DNA of 59,627 bases from a virus (IMGVR_UViG_3300009370_000034:1-59627), one strand, 5' to 3'; counted from the first letter of the stretch, positions 1,090-17,096 are shown. Notes: generated by a model not told the origin, from the letters alone. Translations and numbers: made by a program.

Positions 1090-1197
1090 CCCGGCTGGCA
1101 ACCGGGAGGGGACACCGACACTGTCGAAACGCCGACCCGCCCGTTCTTTCCGGGCACCACGGTCGGCGTCGCCCGGGGGCACGTGCTCTCCCCGGGC
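1090..1197 (+). promoter_or_regulatory. Structured 5' leader of the left operon
   Basis: Three hairpins lie before the first gene of the plus-strand operon. CCCGG/CCGGG is at 1090-1094/1102-1106 with a 7-nt loop. A perfect 9-bp stem is at 1129-1137/1161-1169, and a perfect 8-bp stem is at 1171-1178/1190-1197. A purine leader with GAGGAGG (1221-1227) follows, ahead of the ATG at 1233. The first hairpin is followed by AGGGGACA, which recalls the intergenic elements further down the operon, so this may be a degenerate relative. No promoter could be assigned with confidence. Confidence 0.5.
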
Positions 1198-1232
1198 CTG
1201 AAGATGACAGAGCACAAACAGAGGAGGTCACC

Positions 1233-1590: not shown

Positions 1591-1661
1591 CCCCCGAGCC
1601 AGCCCGCTGGCCTCCGAGGCTCACGACCTCGGCGGGGACGATGGTCGCCACCGGGGCGGCC
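1591..1661 (+). ncRNA. tRNA-like intergenic element 1
   Basis: First of eight related elements. The closing stem P1 is CCCCG/CGGGG (1592-1596/1633-1637). P2 is CCAG/CTGG (1599-1602/1607-1610). P3 is CCGAGG/CCTCGG (1614-1619/1627-1632) with the 7-nt loop CTCACGA and sits directly against the 3' strand of P1, as a T-arm does in tRNA. ACGAT follows, then hairpin P4 GGTCGCC/GGCGGCC (1643-1649/1655-1661) and the leader ACAGACAGGGAGGAGG before the next gene. The fold was deduced by eye. Confidence 0.7.
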
Positions 1662-1682
1662 ACAGACAGGGAGGAGGCTCTC

Positions 1683-1859
1683 GTGGAGAGCACCACCAAC
1701 ATCCGGCCCACCAAGGGCTGGCGTGCCGACCACCTCGCTTGGGATCGCATCGACCGCTCGTACAAGGGCCGGTGGGAGTACGAGCCGGGCTGCGAGTGCG
1801 CCAAGTGCGAGAACTTCTGGAACAGCCTCGCTGCCTGTGTGGGCGACTTCCCCATCTAA
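1683..1859 (+). CDS. Small Cys-motif protein (58 aa)
   Basis: The GTG start at 1683 is chosen because GGAGGCTCTC precedes it exactly as it precedes the ATG at 7101, and both proteins begin with Met-Glu-Ser-Thr. An upstream in-frame ATG at 1641 lies inside the RNA element and has no ribosome-binding site. The 58-aa product has a CECAKC motif (C-x-C-x2-C) after an aromatic, charged segment, so it may bind one metal ion or an iron-sulphur centre. The family is not recognised. It lies between RNA elements 1 and 2. Confidence 0.65.
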   Translation: MESTTNIRPTKGWRADHLAWDRIDRSYKGRWEYEPGCECAKCENFWNSLAACVGDFPI

Positions 1860-1868
1860 CCAACCACC

Positions 1869-1937
1869 CCCTGAGCGGGACCGCCCGCCTCCCCGGCTCA
1901 CGACCGGGGCAGGGACGATCCTCGGCACCAGCCGAGG
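1869..1937 (+). ncRNA. tRNA-like intergenic element 2
   Basis: P1 is CCCTG/CAGGG (1869-1873/1910-1914). P2 is GCGGG/CCCGC (1875-1879/1884-1888). P3 is CCCCGG/CCGGGG (1891-1896/1904-1909) with the 7-nt loop CTCACGA and no gap to P1. ACGAT follows, then P4 CCTCGG/CCGAGG (1920-1925/1932-1937) with the loop CACCAG. The leader ACAGACAGAGAGAGGAGG then leads into the helicase gene at 1961. Confidence 0.75.
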
Positions 1938-1960
1938 ACAGACAGAGAGAGGAGGTCGCC

Positions 1961-3475
1961 ATGAGCGACATCTTCGACGGGGTCACCCTTCACCGGGAGC
2001 CCCGACCGGCGGACGAGCCGGTGCGGCCCATGGCCTGCCCCGACCTCGCCCTGCCGTTCCTGCCGCATCAGCGGTCGGGCATCCAGCAGGCTCTGGACTT
2101 CCGCCGGGCGATCCTCGGATGGGAGATGGGCCTCGGCAAGACCGCCGCTGGGTGCGCCGTCACCGAGGCGGCCCTCGTGGACGGCCTGCGTCCCGTGCTC
2201 TGGGTCGTGCCGCCGCACCTGCGGACGAACACCCTGCGGGAACTGCGGCGGTTCCTCCCCGAGCGCTCCGTGGCGCTGCTGACGGGCCTGACTCCGACGG
2301 ACCTCCCCGAGGCCGACGTGCTGGTCTGCGGCGACTCCACGGTCTCGGCGTGGGCCGACGACCTGACCGGCCACGTGCAGGCGCTCGTCGTGGACGAGGC
2401 CCACCGGCTCAAGAACGGAAGGTCCCGACGTAGCAGCGGCGTTCGCCAGATCGCCGCCTCGCTGCCCGAGGAGGCCCCGAGCCTCCTCATGTCGGGCACG
2501 CCGATCCTGAACCACCCCGCCGAACTGGTGAGCCTCTTGATGATCCTCGGGAGGATCGGCCAATGGGGCGGGCCCAAGAACATGCTCAACAGGTACTGCC
2601 CGGTGACCAACCGCTGGGGCGGTCGTGGCATCGACTGGGACCTCCTGCCCGAGTTGCACGAGCGGCTCACGACCAAGGCCCCGACGGCCTGCATGGTCAG
2701 GCTCCGCTCGGCCGACGTGCTGGAGGACCTGCCCGAGCGAGCGACCATCTCGGTGGCGCTGGACATGGACGCCAAGACCGAGCGGCTCTACCGGGCCGCC
2801 GAGGCCGACCTCATCCAGTTCCTCGCTGAGCACCGTGGCTACGGGCGTCAGCGGCTCGCCGGGGTGGCCCGGGCCGAGGCCCTCGTCAAGTTGACGACGA
2901 TGCGTGGTCTGGCCGGTGAGTCCATCGTGGCCTCGGCCACCGACTACGTGGTCGGCCTGACCGAGACCCGGATGGAGGGCGAGCCTCCCGAGAAGGTGAT
3001 CGTCTTCACCGAGCACCGTGCGCCCGCCGAGGGTCTCCACGAGGCCCTGAGCGAGCGCCTTGGCGAGGCCGCCGTCGTGAAGGTCGTCGGGGGCATGACC
3101 GCCGAGGCCAAGCAGGCGTCGGTGGACCGGCTCCAGACCGAGGACGAGTGCCTCGTGCTGGTGGCGAACTCTCAGGCCGGGGGCACCGGCCTCAACATGC
3201 AGGCCGCCCGTCACGTGGTTGCCGCAGAGGTCGGGTACACCCCGGCTGGGCTCCAGCAATCCATCGCCAGAGCGTGGCGCCACGGACAGACGAGGGACGT
3301 GCTCGCCCACGTCATCCTCCCGACCATGTCCACGGGAGGCGAGACGGTCACCGAGAGGGTCTGGGCCCTTCTGGAGGCCAAGGCCGATGCGGTCGGCCAG
3401 ACCATCGACGGGGAGGGCGACCACTCCCTCCTCTCGGACGACGACATCGCCTCGGCGGTGCTGGCGTCCTACTGA
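1961..3475 (+). CDS. SNF2/DEAH-type DNA helicase or translocase
   Basis: A 504-aa superfamily 2 ATPase. The N-terminal lobe has a Q-like start (LPHQRSGIQQAL), Walker A GWEMGLGKTA, Walker B VVDEAH, and motif III LMSGTP. The C-terminal lobe has EKVIVFTEH, the motif V region ANSQAGGTGLNMQ and the motif VI region QSIARAWRHGQ. These are the signatures of Snf2-like translocases, which use ATP to move along double-stranded DNA and remodel protein-DNA complexes. The ATG at 1961 follows GGAGGTCGCC. The upstream in-frame start at 1739 would run through the RNA element and the previous gene, so it is rejected. A second SF2 helicase is encoded at 30357-31898. Confidence 0.9.
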   Translation: MSDIFDGVTLHREPRPADEPVRPMACPDLALPFLPHQRSGIQQALDFRRAILGWEMGLGKTAAGCAVTEAALVDGLRPVLWVVPPHLRTNTLRELRRFLPERSVALLTGLTPTDLPEADVLVCGDSTVSAWADDLTGHVQALVVDEAHRLKNGRSRRSSGVRQIAASLPEEAPSLLMSGTPILNHPAELVSLLMILGRIGQWGGPKNMLNRYCPVTNRWGGRGIDWDLLPELHERLTTKAPTACMVRLRSADVLEDLPERATISVALDMDAKTERLYRAAEADLIQFLAEHRGYGRQRLAGVARAEALVKLTTMRGLAGESIVASATDYVVGLTETRMEGEPPEKVIVFTEHRAPAEGLHEALSERLGEAAVVKVVGGMTAEAKQASVDRLQTEDECLVLVANSQAGGTGLNMQAARHVVAAEVGYTPAGLQQSIARAWRHGQTRDVLAHVILPTMSTGGETVTERVWALLEAKADAVGQTIDGEGDHSLLSDDDIASAVLASY

Positions 3476-3483
3476 CCCAGACC

Positions 3484-3553
3484 CCCAGCCCGCAGGCTCG
3501 GCCTGCCGCCGGTTCACGACCGAGGCTGGGACGATCCTCCGCACCAGCGGGGG
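3484..3553 (+). ncRNA. tRNA-like intergenic element 3
   Basis: P1 is CCCAG/CTGGG (3484-3488/3526-3530), changed from the usual CCCCTG/CAGGGG but still paired, so the two sides vary together. P2 is a perfect GCAGGC/GCCTGC (3492-3497/3501-3506). P3 is short (CGG/CCG around the loop TTCACGA at 3513-3519). P4 is CCTCCG/CGGGGG (3536-3541/3548-3553) with the loop CACCAG. The leader CGACAGAGAGGAGG follows. Confidence 0.7.
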
Positions 3554-3574
3554 GCCGACAGAGAGGAGGTCGCC

Positions 3575-3937
3575 ATGAGCGACACCAACACCACCGACCC
3601 GGACACCAAGACCCTCGTGGTCGGCCCGTGGGCCGACGCCCCCATCGGCGGCGCCTGGAACGTCCACGACATCGGGATCAAGGGCTCCGTGACCGACACC
3701 GAGGTCCGCACGATGGTGGACCCCCGGGGCATGGACTCCACGCAGGTCGTCGTCTGGCTGAACTACGACGAGTGCCTGCTGATCGACACGTGGGTCGGAC
3801 GGGACACCGGATGCCTCAGCATCGGAGCCCTCGGCCAGACCGAGGACATGCAGGTCTGGGGCGGCCCTGAGCACCTGCGCCAGATCGGCGTGGCGCTCAT
3901 CGGGCTTGCTGCCCGGGTGGACGCCGCCAAGGGCTGA
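3575..3937 (+). CDS. Hypothetical protein (120 aa)
   Basis: The ATG at 3575 follows GAGGAGGTCGCC, the same leader used by the helicase gene. The product is soluble and mixed alpha/beta, with a Thr/Asp-rich start, a strand-rich middle (TQVVVWLNYDECLLIDTWVG) and a helical end (LRQIGVALIGLAARVDAAKG). It has two separated cysteines and no metal motif. I do not recognise it. It is a stand-alone cistron between RNA elements 3 and 4. Confidence 0.75.
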   Translation: MSDTNTTDPDTKTLVVGPWADAPIGGAWNVHDIGIKGSVTDTEVRTMVDPRGMDSTQVVVWLNYDECLLIDTWVGRDTGCLSIGALGQTEDMQVWGGPEHLRQIGVALIGLAARVDAAKG

Positions 3938-3949
3938 CCAGCCCGACAC

Positions 3950-4019
3950 CCCCTGAGCCAGCACGGCTGGCCGCCCGGAGCGAGCCCGGGCAGGGGACGA
4001 TCCCCGGCTCCCGCCGGGG
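3950..4019 (+). ncRNA. tRNA-like intergenic element 4
   Basis: P1 is CCCCTG/CAGGGG (3950-3955/3991-3996). P2 is GCCAG/CTGGC (3957-3961/3967-3971). P3 is CCCGG/CCGGG (3974-3978/3986-3990) with the 7-nt loop AGCGAGC, abutting P1. P4 is CCCCGG/CCGGGG (4002-4007/4014-4019). The leader here differs (ACTGATCCATGAGGAGACAG), placing GAGGAG before the ATG at 4042. Confidence 0.75.
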
Positions 4020-4041
4020 ACTGATCCATGAGGAGACAGTC

Positions 4042-4524
4042 ATGGAGACCAACAGCCCCGAGACGGAGATGGGCACCGTCACCAACCTGCTGCGGACGCT
4101 GGCCGAGGCGCTGGCCCCGTACATCACCACCAGCACCAACGACGAGGTCGACTTCAACGACCAGATGGTCGACTGGTGCAGCAACGAGGGCGTGATCACC
4201 GAGAGCACGTTCGACCCGTCGGACTACGACCTCCTGACCGAGGGCACGTTCGACCCGTCCGACTACGGACTCGTCACGGATGACAAGTTCGACCACAAGG
4301 TCGAACAGGCCATCGACGAGATGTTCACCAACAACAGCATCGTCATTGACGACCTCGTCACCCGTGACGACATCGGTGACATCGTCAGCGTCGAGGTCAG
4401 CGAGGCCGTCAACGAGGCCGTCGTCGGGGAGGTCACCGGACTCCTCGGCAGCGAGGCGTTCCGGGTCGCCGTGGGCGAGGCCCTCGCCCACATCCTCACC
4501 AACTGGGGGGCCGTGCGGGACTGA
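4042..4524 (+). CDS. Acidic protein with internal repeat (160 aa)
   Basis: The start at 4042 follows GAGGAGACAGTC. The protein is strongly acidic (many Asp, Glu and Thr, few Lys or Arg). It contains a tandem 15-residue repeat built on TFDPSDY (about residues 54-83), which is also visible as near-identical DNA at about 4205-4290. The C-terminal third is helical and hydrophobic (VTGLLGSEAFRVAVGEALAH). Acidic early phage proteins often act as DNA mimics or inhibitors, but nothing here proves that. No known domain was recognised. Confidence 0.75.
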   Translation: METNSPETEMGTVTNLLRTLAEALAPYITTSTNDEVDFNDQMVDWCSNEGVITESTFDPSDYDLLTEGTFDPSDYGLVTDDKFDHKVEQAIDEMFTNNSIVIDDLVTRDDIGDIVSVEVSEAVNEAVVGEVTGLLGSEAFRVAVGEALAHILTNWGAVRD

Positions 4525-4569
4525 CCCCGCCGACCTGGAGTCGGTGATATCAGAGAGAGAGAGGAGGTG

Positions 4570-4731
4570 ATGCCAGCCAACCACTGGCCCCCTGAACGGT
4601 TCGCCGCTGTCTCGGTTGCGTCAGCAGCGGCGCTCGGGTTCGAATCCCGAGCAGGGGACGACGGGCCGCACCAGCGGTCCGCAGAAACAGAGAGGAGGTC
4701 CCGGCATGGCCGGAACCGATCTCATCAGTGA
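4570..4731 (+). CDS. Possible small ORF over RNA element 5 (53 aa)
   Basis: A hairpin CCGAC/GTCGG (4530-4534/4540-4544) and a leader CAGAGAGAGAGAGGAGG precede an ATG at 4570, just as at the other genes of this operon. The 53-codon frame runs through RNA element 5 and stops inside the next gene. The product begins MPANHWPPERFAAVS and becomes Arg/Ser-rich where it overlaps the RNA element. It may be a real small gene, a leader peptide controlling the next gene, or the remnant of a lost gene. Confidence 0.35.
   Translation: MPANHWPPERFAAVSVASAAALGFESRAGDDGPHQRSAETERRSRHGRNRSHQ
4589..4680 (+). ncRNA. tRNA-like intergenic element 5 (canonical T-loop)
   Basis: The most tRNA-like copy. P1 is CCCCTG/CAGGGG (4589-4594/4652-4657). 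P2 is a perfect 7-bp GCCGCTG/CAGCGGC (4603-4609/4625-4631) with a 15-nt loop. P3 is CTCGGG/CCCGAG (4633-4638/4646-4651) with the loop TTCGAAT, a full match to the tRNA T-loop consensus. P4 is GGGCCG/CGGTCC (4663-4668/4675-4680) with the loop CACCAG. It lacks a 7-nt anticodon loop and CCA, so it is not a working tRNA. The leader AAACAGAGAGGAGG precedes the ATG at 4706. Confidence 0.75.
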
Positions 4732-5566
4732 GAAGCAGGTCGCTCTCATCCGGCGCTTGGCGCTGGAGCGGACGACCGCCCTCGCCCTTCTGGGCGACGA
4801 CCCCGCACAGGCGGTGGCCGAGTGGATGGAGGCCAACGAGGTCGCCCGCTTGGACCGCCGGTCTGCGAGCAGGGTCATCGACCGCCTCAAGGCGGTCGGA
4901 GTCAGCGACACCCCGCCGCCGCCCTCGGGCTGGGCCGGGCCCGCCGACATGGACTGGATCGGCCCCAGCCGGTGCCGGGCCAAGTGCGCCAAGTGCGGCC
5001 AGTGGGCCGACACGGGCACGGCCCTCTCGGGCGTCAAGGGCGGCCAGTGGACGACCCTCCACCGGCCCGACGACCCGGCCTGCCGTGCGCCCGAGCCGAC
5101 CGGCATCGACCTGTCGGCGCTGGAGCCCTTCCTGAGCGAGACCGGTCAGGGGAACCTGACCGCCCGCTTCGCCCACCCGGACCACGCCGAGGGCCCGGTG
5201 GACGGCCTGACCCGTTGCAAGGTCAGGGTCGTCCTCTCCTCCTCGGGGTGGTTCAGCGTCTACGACGCCGCCGTGTACGGGGCCGGGGCCCGGTACGGGG
5301 GGCAGCGGCCCGGGAGCGGCGACTACGCCGGGGTCGTTCAGGTCGCCGATCACGACCGTCGCACCCTCGGTGGCGAAGCGGACGACCACCTCTACGTCGG
5401 CAACGTGGCCGACCTCCTGCGGGAGATCGTGGCCCGGCCCGCCGACGCTATGAGGGCCTTCGGCCACCTGACCGGGCGGTGCAGTGCCTGCTACCGGGTA
5501 CTGGAGCAGGCCGAGAGCATCGCCGCCGGGATCGGGCCTGTCTGCGCCGAGAGGCTGGGCCTCTGA
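4706..5566 (+). CDS. DUF6011-like zinc protein (286 aa)
   Basis: The ATG at 4706 is set by AGAGGAGGTCCCGGC. The longer in-frame start at 4616 lies in the RNA element. The protein has a helical N-terminus, a central CAKCGQW motif (C-x2-C), and a C-terminal segment with GRCSACYRVL followed by GIGPVCAERLGL. That tail matches the DUF6011 zinc-finger pattern (C-x2-C, then Ser-x5-G-x-GP-x-C), which is common in actinobacteriophage proteins of unknown function. It is probably a nucleic-acid or protein-binding zinc protein. The next gene overlaps its stop by one base (TGATG), so the two are translationally coupled. Confidence 0.8.
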   Translation: MAGTDLISEKQVALIRRLALERTTALALLGDDPAQAVAEWMEANEVARLDRRSASRVIDRLKAVGVSDTPPPPSGWAGPADMDWIGPSRCRAKCAKCGQWADTGTALSGVKGGQWTTLHRPDDPACRAPEPTGIDLSALEPFLSETGQGNLTARFAHPDHAEGPVDGLTRCKVRVVLSSSGWFSVYDAAVYGAGARYGGQRPGSGDYAGVVQVADHDRRTLGGEADDHLYVGNVADLLREIVARPADAMRAFGHLTGRCSACYRVLEQAESIAAGIGPVCAERLGL

Positions 5567-5814
5567 TGACCGCCGTGGCCGAGAACACGCAGGGCGTCTG
5601 GCTGGAGCACCGTGGAGGGCAGTTGTTCCCGCACCTCACGAAGGTGGACATGCTGTGGTCGTTCGACCCGGCCCAGACCACGACCGTTGATGAGTACGTC
5701 GGCGGGGGAGCGTGGCTGTGCGTCTTCAACGACGAGTGGTGGGTGAAGTGCGACTGCGGAACCACCTACCTCAGCCACGGGCGCTCCTGCGGCCAGCAGG
5801 TGTCCCACGATTGA
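5566..5814 (+). CDS. Hypothetical protein (82 aa)
   Basis: Starts within the stop codon of the previous gene (TGATG), which implies coupled translation. The 82-aa product is rich in Trp and aromatic residues, with WWVKCDCGTTYLS carrying a C-x-C pair and a third cysteine (SCGQQ) further on, so a small metal site is possible. The family is not recognised. Confidence 0.7.
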   Translation: MTAVAENTQGVWLEHRGGQLFPHLTKVDMLWSFDPAQTTTVDEYVGGGAWLCVFNDEWWVKCDCGTTYLSHGRSCGQQVSHD

Positions 5815-5819
5815 ACTAC

Positions 5820-5889
5820 CCCCCTCGCTCTGCCTCGGGCAGCGCCGGTTCACGACCGGGCGGGGGACGATCACCGGCACCGGCCGGTG
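5820..5889 (+). ncRNA. tRNA-like intergenic element 6
   Basis: P1 is CCCCC/GGGGG (5820-5824/5862-5866). P2 is CTGCC/GGCAG (5830-5834/5838-5842). P3 is CCGG/CCGG (5845-5848/5856-5859) with the 7-nt loop TTCACGA. P4 is CACCGG/CCGGTG (5872-5877/5884-5889) with the loop CACCGG. The leader is CAGACAGAGAGAGAG without a GGAGG core. Confidence 0.7.
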
Positions 5890-5905
5890 GCAGACAGAGA
5901 GAGAG

Positions 5906-6031
5906 ATGGAGATGGAGAACTATCCCGTCCACCGCATCGTGGCCTTCGGCTGCGCCGAGTGTGGCGACACGTTCCACCAGCCCGACGACTCGGAGAACCG
6001 CCTCTGCCTGAACTGTGAGGAGGAGGACTGA
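5906..6031 (+). CDS. Small zinc-finger-like protein (41 aa)
   Basis: A 41-aa protein with two C-x2-C pairs, GCAECGD and LCLNCEE, spaced like a treble-clef or zinc-ribbon knuckle. The start at 5906 follows GAGAGAG; a second ATG at 5912 is also possible. Its stop overlaps the next ATG (TGATG). The function is unknown. Similar two-knuckle miniproteins recur on the minus strand of this genome (for example at 15514-15672). Confidence 0.65.
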   Translation: MEMENYPVHRIVAFGCAECGDTFHQPDDSENRLCLNCEEED

Positions 6032-6390
6032 TGGACGCCTACGACAGGCACCACGCCCCCAACACGGTCAGGAAGGGCTGGCGTCGCACCCGGTCCCGCC
6101 GAACGGACCGGCTCCCTAGGTTCCCTCACGGCAAAGCGCCGGACGGGTGGTGGTGGTTCCGACCCTCGGAGACCGACAGCGTCCTGTTCGACACCCCCGA
6201 GGACTGCCTCTTCGATCAAGACACCGACGACGAGACTCCCGGGCACCGGGGGACCAAGCCCGAGCCCGAGGTCACCGGCACCGCCATCCGTTCTCGTGTG
6301 GGGACCCCGGCGGGCCCACGCCTCGGGCCCGGACGGCGCGAGATGCGTGAGGTGCTCTGGAGGCGCAGGCGCAGCCAGCAGCCCTCCTGA
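6031..6390 (+). CDS. Hypothetical basic protein (119 aa)
   Basis: Overlaps the upstream stop by one base. The N-terminal 35 residues and the C-terminus are rich in Arg and Lys (GWRRTRSRRTDR, REVLWRRRRSQQ), while the centre is acidic and aromatic (DTDDETP). The basic ends suggest nucleic-acid binding. No domain was recognised. Confidence 0.7.
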   Translation: MDAYDRHHAPNTVRKGWRRTRSRRTDRLPRFPHGKAPDGWWWFRPSETDSVLFDTPEDCLFDQDTDDETPGHRGTKPEPEVTGTAIRSRVGTPAGPRLGPGRREMREVLWRRRRSQQPS

Positions 6391-6398
6391 CCAAGAGA

Positions 6399-6466
6399 CC
6401 CCTGACCCGGACCGCCGGGCGTCGGCCTTCGTGAGGCCGCAGGGGACGATCCCGGCGCAGGCCGGG
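6399..6466 (+). ncRNA. tRNA-like intergenic element 7
   Basis: P1 is CCCCTG/CAGGGG (6399-6404/6440-6445). P2 is CCCGG/CCGGG (6406-6410/6415-6419). P3 is CGGCC/GGCCG (6423-6427/6435-6439) with the 7-nt loop TTCGTGA. P4 is CCCGGC/GCCGGG (6451-6456/6461-6466). The leader is ACAGACAGAGAGAGACAGACAG and carries no GGAGG before the ATG at 6489. Confidence 0.75.
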
Positions 6467-6488
6467 ACAGACAGAGAGAGACAGACAG

Positions 6489-7007
6489 ATGTGCAATCTG
6501 ATGAGAGACGGCTGGCCCACCTATCTGGTGACGACCTGCTGCTACGAGGGTGGCAAGGCCACCCACCGGGAGTTCATCCCGCACAGCCCCGCCCGGTTCG
6601 TGGCCCTGTGCCGTCGGCACGCCCGGCAGCGGCGGGCGCTGGGCCACGAGGTCGTGGCCTACACGACCCTCGCCCGCAGGGCGCTGGCCGCCGAGCACAA
6701 GGCGTGGATGGCCGGGTGCCGAGTGGAGGGTGCCTTCCGAGGCGACTCGGAGTGGACCATGATGCGGAACTGGTCCGAGGCGCAGATCGAGCGCCACTAC
6801 CAGCGGGCGTACGCCCGTGCGCTCGGCCTCGTCGTCCGTGAGTACGACCGGGCCGACGGCCTGATGAGTTGGAGGCTCACGGGCACCGGCACCTCGGTGG
6901 GCCCGGAGGAGACGACGCTGCCGCAGTTGTGGTTCTGGGAGATCGCCCAGTCCTACGGCATCGACCAGTTGCCGTGGCACCTGACCGGGAACGCCGACTA
7001 CGCCTGA
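6489..7007 (+). CDS. Hypothetical protein (172 aa)
   Basis: The start at 6489 directly follows a repeated ACAGACAG leader with no classic Shine-Dalgarno core, which is unusual for this operon. The N-terminal half has several Cys and His residues (TTCCYEG, CRRHARQRR) and is basic. The second half is helical and aromatic (WSEAQIERHYQRAYARAL). The mix could bind nucleic acid or a metal ion. The family is not recognised. Confidence 0.75.
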   Translation: MCNLMRDGWPTYLVTTCCYEGGKATHREFIPHSPARFVALCRRHARQRRALGHEVVAYTTLARRALAAEHKAWMAGCRVEGAFRGDSEWTMMRNWSEAQIERHYQRAYARALGLVVREYDRADGLMSWRLTGTGTSVGPEETTLPQLWFWEIAQSYGIDQLPWHLTGNADYA

Positions 7008-7016
7008 CCACGAGAC

Positions 7017-7080
7017 CCCTGACCAGCAGGCACCCGGGTGCGAGCCCCGGGCAGGGACGACGGCCACCGCCCGGTGGCCG
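7017..7080 (+). ncRNA. tRNA-like intergenic element 8
   Basis: P1 is CCCTG/CAGGG (7017-7021/7052-7056). P2 is minimal here. P3 is a perfect CCCGGG/CCCGGG (7033-7038/7046-7051) with the 7-nt loop TGCGAGC, abutting P1. P4 is CGGCCACC/GGTGGCCG (7061-7068/7073-7080). The leader CAGACAGAGAGGAGG precedes the ATG at 7101. Confidence 0.7.
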
Positions 7081-14470: not shown

Positions 14471-15097
14471 TCATCCCCAGCAGTGTTCGGACGGGTACCA
14501 GTGGCCTTTACCTTGCGGCGTTTGGTAAAGGAGATACGCCGCCACCTCCACGTTGGCGACCGGGTCCATGATGTCGGCCCCGGGGATTCCCGCCGCCTCG
14601 GTGCGATACTCCCAGAACTTGGGGAGGTGCTGGAACCAGCCCGACGCTCCCGACCGCTTGTGTACCGCTTTCGATACCACGTCCTCGGGCTGTGCGGAAG
14701 ACTCACAGAAAGCCACTTTAAGCGCCCACGCCCAGTCCTCCATCTCGAAGTTCTGTCCGATCAGTTCCGCCAGTGTAGGCGGCTCGGGAGGGAGCGTCGT
14801 GGTGGTCGTGGGAGGGACCGTGGAGGTCGTGGTGGTAGGCACAGGCCGGTGGAAGACCACCGTCAGCACCGGGGGGTCCTCAGGGACGACCGAGGGGACC
14901 TTCTGAGAGCGCGGGTTCCTGTTCAGGTTCTCAGAGAAGGCACTTGGTTCCTCGGTCGCCCCTTGGTGGAGGTGCGGGGAATCGAACCCCGGTCCGCTGA
15001 TGCTCCGCATGCGGCTTTCACCAGCGTCGATACCAAACTCACCCCCGCACGAAGCGAAGACTAGCAGGCTAGACAGGACAATACCAATAGAGCGCAT
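14471..15097 (-). CDS. Lytic transglycosylase-like lipoprotein ORF (208 aa)
   Basis: The C-terminal 90 residues look like a soluble lytic transglycosylase fold: AFCESSAQPEDVV with the probable catalytic Glu, GASGWFQHLP, then DPVANVEVAAYLLY and GHWYPSEHCW. Such enzymes cleave peptidoglycan. A Thr/Pro-rich linker (PTTTTSTVPPTTTTT) precedes the domain. The first 19 residues (MRSIGIVLSSLLVFASCGG) look like a lipoprotein signal with a lipobox Cys. Two oddities cast doubt on the N-terminus. The ATG at 15097 has no Shine-Dalgarno, and codons of about 18-45 coincide with a tmRNA-like RNA (14964-15046). A shorter product from a GTG near 14877, preceded by GAGG, is an alternative. Confidence 0.7.
   Translation of the reverse strand: MRSIGIVLSSLLVFASCGGEFGIDAGESRMRSISGPGFDSPHLHQGATEEPSAFSENLNRNPRSQKVPSVVPEDPPVLTVVFHRPVPTTTTSTVPPTTTTTLPPEPPTLAELIGQNFEMEDWAWALKVAFCESSAQPEDVVSKAVHKRSGASGWFQHLPKFWEYRTEAAGIPGADIMDPVANVEVAAYLLYQTPQGKGHWYPSEHCWG
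14964..15046 (-). ncRNA. tmRNA tRNA-like domain without mRNA-like region
   Basis: Read on the minus strand this 83-nt stretch starts GGGGGTGA and ends CACCTCCACCA, giving a 7-bp acceptor stem with a G3-U70 wobble, discriminator A and an encoded CCA. The 5' part matches the tmRNA D-like region (TTTGGTATCGAC). The T-arm is CGGGG/CCCCG with the loop TTCGATT. In place of the long tmRNA middle there is only one arm, CGCTGGTG/CATCAGCG, capped by CCGC/GCGG. There is no tag reading frame and no pseudoknot. It lies inside an open reading frame. G3-U70 is the alanyl-tRNA synthetase identity signal. Confidence 0.65.
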
Positions 15098-15513: not shown

Positions 15514-15672
15514 CTACTGCTCTTCAGCGCATTCAACGCACAGGCCGTCCCACGACAGATCGGTGAGGGGAGTGTACTCCTCACAGTAGTAGCAGTAATC
15601 TCCCTCCACGCCAAAGGCGTCGAAGAGGATGGGGTCGTCCTCGTCATTCTCGAAGTACTCCCGAACGGTCAT
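15514..15672 (-). CDS. Small zinc-knuckle protein (52 aa)
   Basis: A 52-aa acidic protein with CYYCEEYTP and CVECAEEQ at its end, a two-knuckle zinc module. The ATG at 15672 overlaps the stop of the upstream gene (ATGA), and its stop lies just before the WhiB start, so it is part of the operon. It resembles the 41-aa protein at 5906-6031 in plan, though not in sequence. Confidence 0.65.
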   Translation of the reverse strand: MTVREYFENDEDDPILFDAFGVEGDYCYYCEEYTPLTDLSWDGLCVECAEEQ

Positions 15673-17096
15673 CTGTCAAGCACCGTCCCGTCTATGATGT
15701 CCCCGTACAACTGGTCTGTCTCCTCGGCGTCCAGACCACCGCCCGGCAGTTGGCGAGCGGTCTCTCCAGCCTTGGACCCGAAGAGACGGGACAGGACCCC
15801 GCTGCTGCCCCGGGACTCCATGGAGATGGAGAGCACCTCACGGGACTCGTTCACGGTCTTCATCTTGTCGATGAGCGTGAAGAGACGGTCCATCTCGGCC
15901 GAGAGTGCCGGGTCCAGACCCTGCCCCTCCAACTCCTCAGCGAACCGGCCGAACAGGACACGGCTCGCCTGCATCTCCAGCATGACCCGCATGACGGCGT
16001 TCAACTGGTCCTTGGTCCTTATCTCCACGGGCAACTTGAAGCCACATTCTGAATGTTCCTTGAATGCAGGACATCGGGAGGCCAGATAACAATTATTGCA
16101 TTGTCTTAGGAGGCCCCCGGTACTGGCCACAGTGGTGACCTCTGTAGGGCCCAGTTCTAGGTGTTCCCCCTGCTCAGAGGTGGTTTGCTCCCCTATGGAG
16201 GTGACCGTTTCCAGACCCAGACCCGGTAGCAATACCTTCTCGTCTTCGTGCCGCTCTAGAACGGTACCGATAACAATATCAGGGAGGTTGGAAGACCCTG
16301 AACCCCCGTCGTGCTCATCGGGGGGTATAGCAATCATTTGATCGCTACTAGGCCCAAACTCATCCTCACCCGATGAGGTCCCCGAGGGGTCATAGGCCCC
16401 GGCCCACGCCAACCACGAACGGATGGCGAGCAGGCCCAGAGACGACACTGAATCGTCTATTACCTCGTCGTAGTCCACTCCCAGACGGACGATGTCGGCC
16501 CGGTGCTTCTTACGGGCCGACTCCTTCTGCTGGGCTGGGTACCGACGGAGGCCATGGCCGTCCCAGACCTGAGTCTCGCCGTAGCGGATGACCGAGGTCC
16601 ACGAGCCCACTACCACAGCGTCCCACGGGCCTGCCTCGATGGAGTCCACCTTCGACGTGAGGGCCGTCATGTGGCACCCCCAGCGCTGCTTGAGTTGGTT
16701 GATGCGCGGGAGTGTCTTGCTGTTGATTGCACGATCACTGATGGCCACACGACCGTACTTCTCGCAGAGCCAAGCGAGCCTCTCCATGTCCTCCTTGTCG
16801 TTCCAGACAGGAGAATACTTCTGGCCCAGCCATGCCCCGTCGTAGTCAGGGGGGCCGATGACGACTGCAATGTCGTCTAGGTGCTGGCGCACGAAGGCAT
16901 CGAAGCGGTCAATGTCCTCGTCTGCCTCTGAGGCGTAGACCAGAACGTCACCCCCGCCGAACTTCTCTTGGAGGTCCAGAGCCTTGCGCTTGGGGATGGG
17001 GAACTGTGTGAGGTTGACAGCGAACGAGGTGACCCCGGCGGACAGAAGGATAGAACGGTACGTTCCCTTCTCCGCCCCACCGAAGTAGACCTTCAC
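15669..17096 (-). CDS. Conserved phage protein, possibly TGT/DpdA-like (475 aa)
   Basis: The start is GTG at 17096 in a GTGA overlap. The N-terminus MKVYFGGAEKGTYRS and the later phrases DAVVVGSWTSVIRYGE, DGHGLRRYPAQQK and ARKKHRADIVRLG fit, from memory, a large actinophage family sometimes labelled as queuine tRNA-ribosyltransferase-like. I cannot confirm the active-site residues. After a low-complexity linker (about residues 235-310) there is a Cys cluster (CNNCYLASRCPAF, then ECGF) like a metal or Fe-S site, and a helical C-terminus. If the relation to DpdA is right it could insert 7-deazaguanine into DNA, but no deazaguanine synthesis gene is seen in this window. Confidence 0.6.
   Translation of the reverse strand: MKVYFGGAEKGTYRSILLSAGVTSFAVNLTQFPIPKRKALDLQEKFGGGDVLVYASEADEDIDRFDAFVRQHLDDIAVVIGPPDYDGAWLGQKYSPVWNDKEDMERLAWLCEKYGRVAISDRAINSKTLPRINQLKQRWGCHMTALTSKVDSIEAGPWDAVVVGSWTSVIRYGETQVWDGHGLRRYPAQQKESARKKHRADIVRLGVDYDEVIDDSVSSLGLLAIRSWLAWAGAYDPSGTSSGEDEFGPSSDQMIAIPPDEHDGGSGSSNLPDIVIGTVLERHEDEKVLLPGLGLETVTSIGEQTTSEQGEHLELGPTEVTTVASTGGLLRQCNNCYLASRCPAFKEHSECGFKLPVEIRTKDQLNAVMRVMLEMQASRVLFGRFAEELEGQGLDPALSAEMDRLFTLIDKMKTVNESREVLSISMESRGSSGVLSRLFGSKAGETARQLPGGGLDAEETDQLYGDIIDGTVLDR

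Follow-up and report, generated by a model that had tools for sequence, protein, structure and literature searches.

The window, i.e., the whole 59.6-kb stretch of DNA analysed, is a single IMG/VR virus record, and its tail sheath and baseplate genes mark it as a contractile-tailed phage whose sheath and DNA polymerase I are nearest to those of the BRock-type Streptomyces phages, at an identity of just 33-36%. A plus-strand operon occupies 1.2-7.5 kb, its genes largely of unknown kind, with a SNF2-type helicase and a DUF6011 protein as the exceptions. Within it lie eight related RNA elements (Table 1), one at each of the eight open (non-overlapping) gene junctions from the first operon gene to the last element at 7.1 kb, and none where genes overlap, at three junctions (near 5566, 6031 and 7277). 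Element 1 begins 8 nt past the stop of gene 1. A type II hammerhead ribozyme stands at the head of the operon, in a region with a fold z of -3.4. Its core (CGAAAC, GUC and CUGAAGA) agrees with the CUGANGA/GAAA/GUC consensus and has the open stem II, and its loop I (GUGCU, 1183-1187) pairs with a 3' tail (AGCAC, 1211-1215) in a pseudoknot of the kind described for type II hammerheads (PMC3088659).

Table 1. RNA features of the left operon, with their make-up and their scores against covariance models R1, R2 and R3 or Rfam
Feature	Position	Strand	Make-up	Model match
Type II hammerhead ribozyme	1121..1215	+	Operon head; predicted cleavage after C1170	RF02276, 32.7 bits (below the gathering score of 37), E 4e-5 on 301 bp
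Element 1	1591..1662	+	P1 CCCCG/CGGGG, P2 hairpin, P3 loop CTCACGA, ACGAT, P4	R3 E 3.6e-9, out of sample; R2 76 bits
Element 2	1868..1938	+	P1 CCCTG/CAGGG, P2, loop CTCACGA, ACGAT, P4 TCCTCGGC-ACCA-GCCGAGGA	R3 E 1.7e-8, out of sample
Element 3	3483..3554	+	P1 CCCAGCC/GGCTGGG, P2, short P3 with loop TTCACGA, ACGAT, P4	R3 E 2.8e-7, out of sample
Element 4	3949..4020	+	P1 CCCCTG/CAGGGG (6 bp), P2, 5-bp P3 with loop AGCGAGC, ACGAT, P4	R3 70 bits, training member; R2 E 1.6e-6, out of sample
Element 5	4588..4681	+	Long P2 (39-nt linker), P3 with canonical T-loop TTCGAAT, 12-nt 3' strand, ACGAC, P4	R3 E 5.7e-6, out of sample
Element 6	5820..5890	+	Loop TTCACGA, ACGAT, P4	R3 E 1.1e-8, out of sample
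Element 7	6398..6467	+	P1 CCCCTG/CAGGGG, P2 CCCGG-ACCG-CCGGG, P3 CGGCC/GGCCG with loop TTCGTGA, ACGAT, P4	R3 62 bits, training member; R2 E 2.5e-9, out of sample
Element 8	7016..7080	+	Short form, 11-nt linker ACCAGCAGGCA, P3 loop TGCGAGC, ACGAC, P4; R18:K55 = A:G, linker GC with loop GC	R3 E 3.6e-6, out of sample; R1 73 bits, training member

The eight folds, which the original prediction had placed at these positions, were borne out by covariance model R3, whose training set consisted of seven relatives and window copies 4 and 7. It recovered all eight in the 59.6 kb (E 2.4e-17 to 5.7e-6), six of them out of sample (E 3.6e-9 to 5.7e-6), and found no further element in the window, the next match having an E of 0.21. 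A second model, R2, trained on window copies 1 and 2 plus relatives, recovered seven of the eight. A strict descriptor (a 7-nt loop whose positions 3-4 are C-R, a 3' strand of 11-12 nt that is paired throughout, then ACGAY) produced seven matches in the 6.4-kb operon and none on either strand of the rest of the window; on Markov-shuffled versions of the operon, which ignore phylogeny, it averaged 0.009 matches, with a maximum of one in 1,000 shuffles. ARAGORN called no tRNA genes and Rfam gave no tRNA match, so the elements are not four-arm tRNAs.

Relatives were found via one T-arm DNA pattern, which brought chance matches alongside, and then via further patterns and model R1. The family has some 60 distinct copies, spread over about 20 IMG/VR contigs of uncultured phages, several of them near-duplicates, so that perhaps ten independent lineages are represented; a contig carries at most nine copies, and as a rule one at each gene junction. 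The contig G009 carries a divergent single copy with an ACGC tail, upstream of a phage antirepressor gene; in the annotation of Gordonia phages that share this antirepressor there is no gap at that place. Beyond IMG/VR, blastn of the operon and of single elements against the INPHARED phages returned short spurious matches only, with no copy recognised, and there is no element in the Streptomyces myoviruses of the BRock type, which are the isolates closest in tail sheath and DNA polymerase. The helicase protein, used as a query, led to no relatives. One pattern run over 84,980 GTDB genomes gave 105 matches; among the 80 loci listed R1 identified no element, and by eye none of the matches had a good P3/P1.

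In the by-eye alignment the order is P1, then P2 or a short linker, P3 with its 7-nt loop, P1', ACGA[T/C] and P4. P1, P2, P3 and P4 all covary, and the two-sided base changes confirm that these are real RNA folds. Of the three observations that were to refute the prediction, two, a lack of covariation and a lack of relatives, were looked for, and both covariation and relatives were found. The dominant form among the relatives is a short one with an 11-nt linker, and its alignment (A2, 30 gap-free sequences) has a P1 of 5 bp, a P3 of 6 bp, the 7-nt loop and ACGA, with P1 and P3 paired in every sequence and many changes on both strands. P1, P2 and P3 also covary in the P2-bearing forms (alignments A5 and A6), and in the ten copies of A5 P2 is capped by an NCNG tetraloop. 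Several details of the prediction needed amending. A closing stem is present in every copy, but it is better written as CCCTG/CAGGG-like than as CCCCTG/CAGGGG, and it trades base pairs with P3 (5+6, 6+5 or about 7+4, copy 3 having a P1 of about 7 bp). The second hairpin is absent from copy 8, which has the 11-nt-linker form. The stack of P1 on P3, put at about 10-12 bp, is more uniform than that: from T-loop to ACGA the 3' strand measures 11 nt in 54 of 55 copies and 12 nt in copy 5, a tRNA having 12, and scans permitting 11 or 12 nt and 10 to 12 nt gave the same outcome for true copies. Such a trade-off at fixed length suggests selection on the span between elbow and end, as for enzymes that take the measure of a tRNA. 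The perfect T-loop of copy 5 is real, and is an exception within the window.

The phrase GACGAT/GACGAC likewise reduces to an invariant part, ACGA[T/C], after P1. The tail is ACGA, not CCA, nearly everywhere (the exceptions being ACTA at L225:3643 and the ACGC of G009), and the near-invariance of its G suggests that it does something specific, other than mimicking CCA. The further hairpin, P4, abuts ACGA in 48 of 55 copies and is missing in seven relatives, and the identity of its stem is fully interchangeable (TTGACAC/GTGTCAA, TTGACAG/CTGTCAA, CCTGGCC/GGCCAGG and others). The predicted ACAGACAGAGAG-GGAGG does not belong to the element: the purine-rich tract is a local Shine-Dalgarno leader, and relatives carry AACGAGGAGGAACC there.

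In tRNA, residue 56 pairs with residue 19, and residue 18 contacts residue 55 (PMC4810234). In an unsupervised mutual information analysis of the elements, three elbow pairs (10-25, 15-30 and 16-29) rank alongside the helices. Linker 5 and T-loop 56, the equivalent of G19:C56, are an invariant G:C in all 30 aligned short copies and in five more, although C56 and R57 were built into some of the search patterns (they were absent from the 10-to-12-nt scan and from the covariance models). Linker 4 and T-loop 55 (R18:K55) are either A:G (26 copies) or G:U (nine) and never mixed in the 35 true short copies. Linker 9-10 is Watson-Crick paired with T-loop 59-60 in every case, with GC/GC, CC/GG, GG/CC and AG/CT swapping freely, and linker 2 forms a one-pair D-stem with linker 8 in 87%. 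Five of the 35 short copies lie outside A2, the alignment that suggested these rules, and all five obey them. The type at 18:55 and those of the 59-60 pairs assort independently, so that shared descent of one linked block is no explanation. Judged from these alignments, the linker/T-loop contacts correspond one to one with 18-55 and 19-56 of tRNA, although the 18:55 covariation shows contact and not geometry; the mimicry of tRNA is in this respect stronger than had been claimed. The T-loop residues U54 to A58 (TNCRA) occur in all short-form copies of A2 and are missing in the P2-bearing forms (YTCRYGA, AGCGAGA), where the elbow must therefore differ; the tetraloop G of the A5 P2 could provide the elbow partner there.

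In most of about 54 copies P1 starts 6-10 nt past the upstream stop (mode 8), distances that rest on the longest open frame and are uncertain for a few copies. This is roughly the edge of the footprint of a terminating ribosome. The next start codon follows 22-50 nt past ACGA, with an open, A/C-rich Shine-Dalgarno leader between. On this sequence evidence it is likely that the elements act in cis and have a role at gene boundaries. Many relatives also have a tmRNA-like RNA, a mini-tmRNA, downstream of the punctuated region and on the same strand. Given this linked RNA and the hammerhead at the operon head, processing of such transcripts by tRNA enzymes is to be expected anyway, and RNA processing is a recurring theme of element-bearing transcripts.

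Our tentative preference, whose chance of being right we put somewhat short of even, is that the elements are operon punctuation, in which elbow and ruler are read by a host tRNA-end enzyme or confer resistance to nucleases. The element would fold as the upper half of a tRNA, i.e., an 11-bp acceptor/T-arm stack of P1 on P3 with a 7-nt T-loop, onto which the D-loop-like linker (or the P2 hairpin) would dock to form the elbow. Positioned just outside the footprint of the terminating ribosome and just ahead of the next Shine-Dalgarno, it would present elbow and fixed distance to the enzyme, perhaps RNase P cutting 5' of P1, or would simply withstand ribonucleases. The polycistronic message may thereby be split into, or stabilised as, gene-sized units, each having a folded 5' end and, downstream of it, a ribosome-binding site that stays open. 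A more specific version, that host tRNA-end enzymes cut or cap the message at each gene as part of a phage kit of tRNA mimics to which a mini-tmRNA of alanine identity, lacking a message domain, also belongs, we consider rather doubtful.

The choice of enzyme is a guess at what would read the observed fold, elbow covariation, ruler and placement. RNase P, RNase Z and CCA-adding enzymes all bind the elbow or measure from it (PMC4810234), and the known substrates of RNase P include phage RNAs, mRNAs, tmRNA and viral tRNA-like pseudoknots (PMC11143913, PMC12710915). Of these enzymes RNase P is the foremost candidate, because it stacks on the elbow, gauges the distance to the acceptor end and also cleaves viral RNAs of tRNA-like shape (PMC4810234, PMC11143913, PMC12710915). 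Cleavage of a pseudoknot substrate was found to depend on RCCA (PMC12710915). Where an RNase P substrate has a 12-bp acceptor/T stack and a 3' RCCA, the elements have 11 bp and ACGA, a tail with which one of the three RCC:RNase P RNA contacts would be lost, and on paper they are therefore imperfect substrates. Processing by RNase P is plausible, with the ACGA and the 11 bp arguing somewhat against it.

The main rival is a stability barrier free of processing, in which no tRNA enzyme takes part and the compact pseudoknotted element, together with P4, behaves like a REP or an exonuclease-resistant RNA, shielding the 3' end of the upstream gene from 3'-to-5' exonucleases and the downstream gene from 5'-to-3' RNase J. 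The site directly past stop codons, the stable GC-rich stems with the linker/T-loop pseudoknot, and the freedom of P4 to change its stem would all suit such a barrier; simple hairpins would be enough for it, however, and it has no need of a tRNA-type elbow, an invariant ACGA or an 11-nt ruler, and we consider it improbable. We think it somewhat less probable still that the fold is a translation element that touches the ribosome (L1 stalk, L5) or offers a standby site, insulating termination from the next initiation. Ribosomal sites do recognise the 19-56 pair (PMC4810234), and every element is preceded by a stop codon and followed by an unstructured Shine-Dalgarno, but strong Shine-Dalgarno sites are already present and the spacing to the start codon varies. 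The invariant single-stranded ACGA exactly 3' of P1, with a stop codon close by, could instead be a 3'-end signal, cut by RNase Z or another nuclease past P1 so as to leave a tRNA-like mRNA 3' end as in plant viruses; access would be hindered by a P4 abutting ACGA in most copies, no aminoacylation identity is known, and we hold this to be very unlikely. Hardly any weight falls on an unrecognised self-cleaving ribozyme or metabolite aptamer, despite the hammerhead in the same operon and the conserved single-stranded ACGA, as the elbow accounts for the conserved positions, Rfam finds no known ribozyme core in the elements, and the unrelated downstream genes lead one to expect no common ligand, on which ground a riboswitch was also rejected.

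The elements allow a direct test of whether phages divide operons into gene-sized messages by means of host tRNA enzymes, and an element would serve synthetic operons as a portable boundary part. The element shrinks the tRNA elbow to 46 nt, and within the family the 18-55 and linker/T-loop contacts occur in many natural versions.

Mimicry of tRNA by viral RNAs is classical in plant viruses; for a phage in which a minimal tRNA elbow recurs at the gene junctions, we found no account in the literature. Plant-virus tRNA-like structures of the TYMV type share with the elements the mimicry of acceptor/T-arm and elbow and the stabilisation by a pseudoknot, and are RNase P substrates (PMC12710915, PMC4810234). 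They are, however, single, 3'-terminal and CCA-ending, whereas the phage elements are internal, repeated and ACGA-tailed. Mitochondrial transcripts are also punctuated by tRNA folds at gene junctions, but these are real tRNAs and the phage elements are mimics without an anticodon arm. REP elements are repeated intergenic RNA structures past stop codons, but are simple palindromes without tertiary contacts. Like the elements, tmRNA (RF00023) has a tRNA-like domain without a normal D-stem, and a mini version occurs in many of the same phages; the elements differ in having no RF00023 match, no G3:U70 and no CCA. The nearest family in Rfam, DUF2693-FD (RF02926), has a similar P1-P2-P3 three-way junction, a 7-nt loop (AGCGAGA) abutting P1', and a home in phage contigs. 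The elements score only 18-23 bits against it (best 23.4 in the window and 23.3 in L044), short of the gathering score of 44.5, and R3 in turn misses RF02926. Its members have 7+5 = 12 bp, a fixed linker (TGACGG..CGGCA) and no ACGA; they are present in viral contigs at one pattern match per contig, without a punctuation pattern, and there was no usable member in the sampled Bacteroidales and the class of G025. Convergence and remote kinship with RF02926 cannot be told apart. The elements have no Rfam family and no paper was found describing them; they are a new RNA family, to be filed under the viral tRNA-like structures.

Eleven contigs that bear the tRNA-elbow mimic RNAs (elements) also carry a mini-tmRNA, usually on the same strand as the elements and 0.7-1 kb downstream of the last of them. 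The matches to RF00023, the Rfam tmRNA family, score 54-74 bits (gathering 47), and the alanine identity pair G3:U70 together with A73 is present in all seven distinct sequences, among which the P2 arms differ. The window copy was not detected by ARAGORN.

Mini-tmRNAs, neighbouring genes of the window copy, and the hammerhead ribozyme
Feature	Position	Strand	Match
mini-tmRNA	window 14964-15046	-	RF00023
mini-tmRNA	L225:4985-5066	-	RF00023
mini-tmRNA	L229:7372-7448		RF00023
mini-tmRNA	L073:2724-2804		RF00023
mini-tmRNA	L074:4177-4267		RF00023
mini-tmRNA	L075:12636-12716		RF00023
mini-tmRNA	G012:10108-10188		RF00023
ORF, apparent lipoprotein signal at start (MRSIGIVLSSLLVFASCGG)	window 14471-15097	-	
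queuine tRNA-ribosyltransferase-like protein	window 15669-17096	-	phrog_887, E 5.7e-33
type II hammerhead ribozyme	window 1121-1215	+	Rfam, below gathering score

The ORF with the apparent lipoprotein signal overlaps the window mini-tmRNA; coding and RNA readings compete for the same bases. Near this mini-tmRNA lies the gene for the queuine tRNA-ribosyltransferase-like protein, which had no Pfam match and may be a TGT paralogue modifying DNA or RNA.

In the punctuated operon, the element-bearing left operon of the window, the hammerhead is placed 5' of the first gene and has a loop I/tail pseudoknot. Element 5 is the only one of all copies with a 12-nt stack and the only one in the window with the canonical T-loop TTCGAAT; it is preceded by a strong Shine-Dalgarno and an ATG (~4571) of its own, from which a small ORF reads through it, an arrangement located at window 4560-4662 (+). 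Elsewhere, the tail ACGA is replaced by ACTA in L225:3643-3694 and by ACGC in G009:5046-5098.

At 77-91 nt, the mini-tmRNAs cover the complete tRNA-like domain of tmRNA and have neither mRNA-like domain nor tag; they could block or divert trans-translation.
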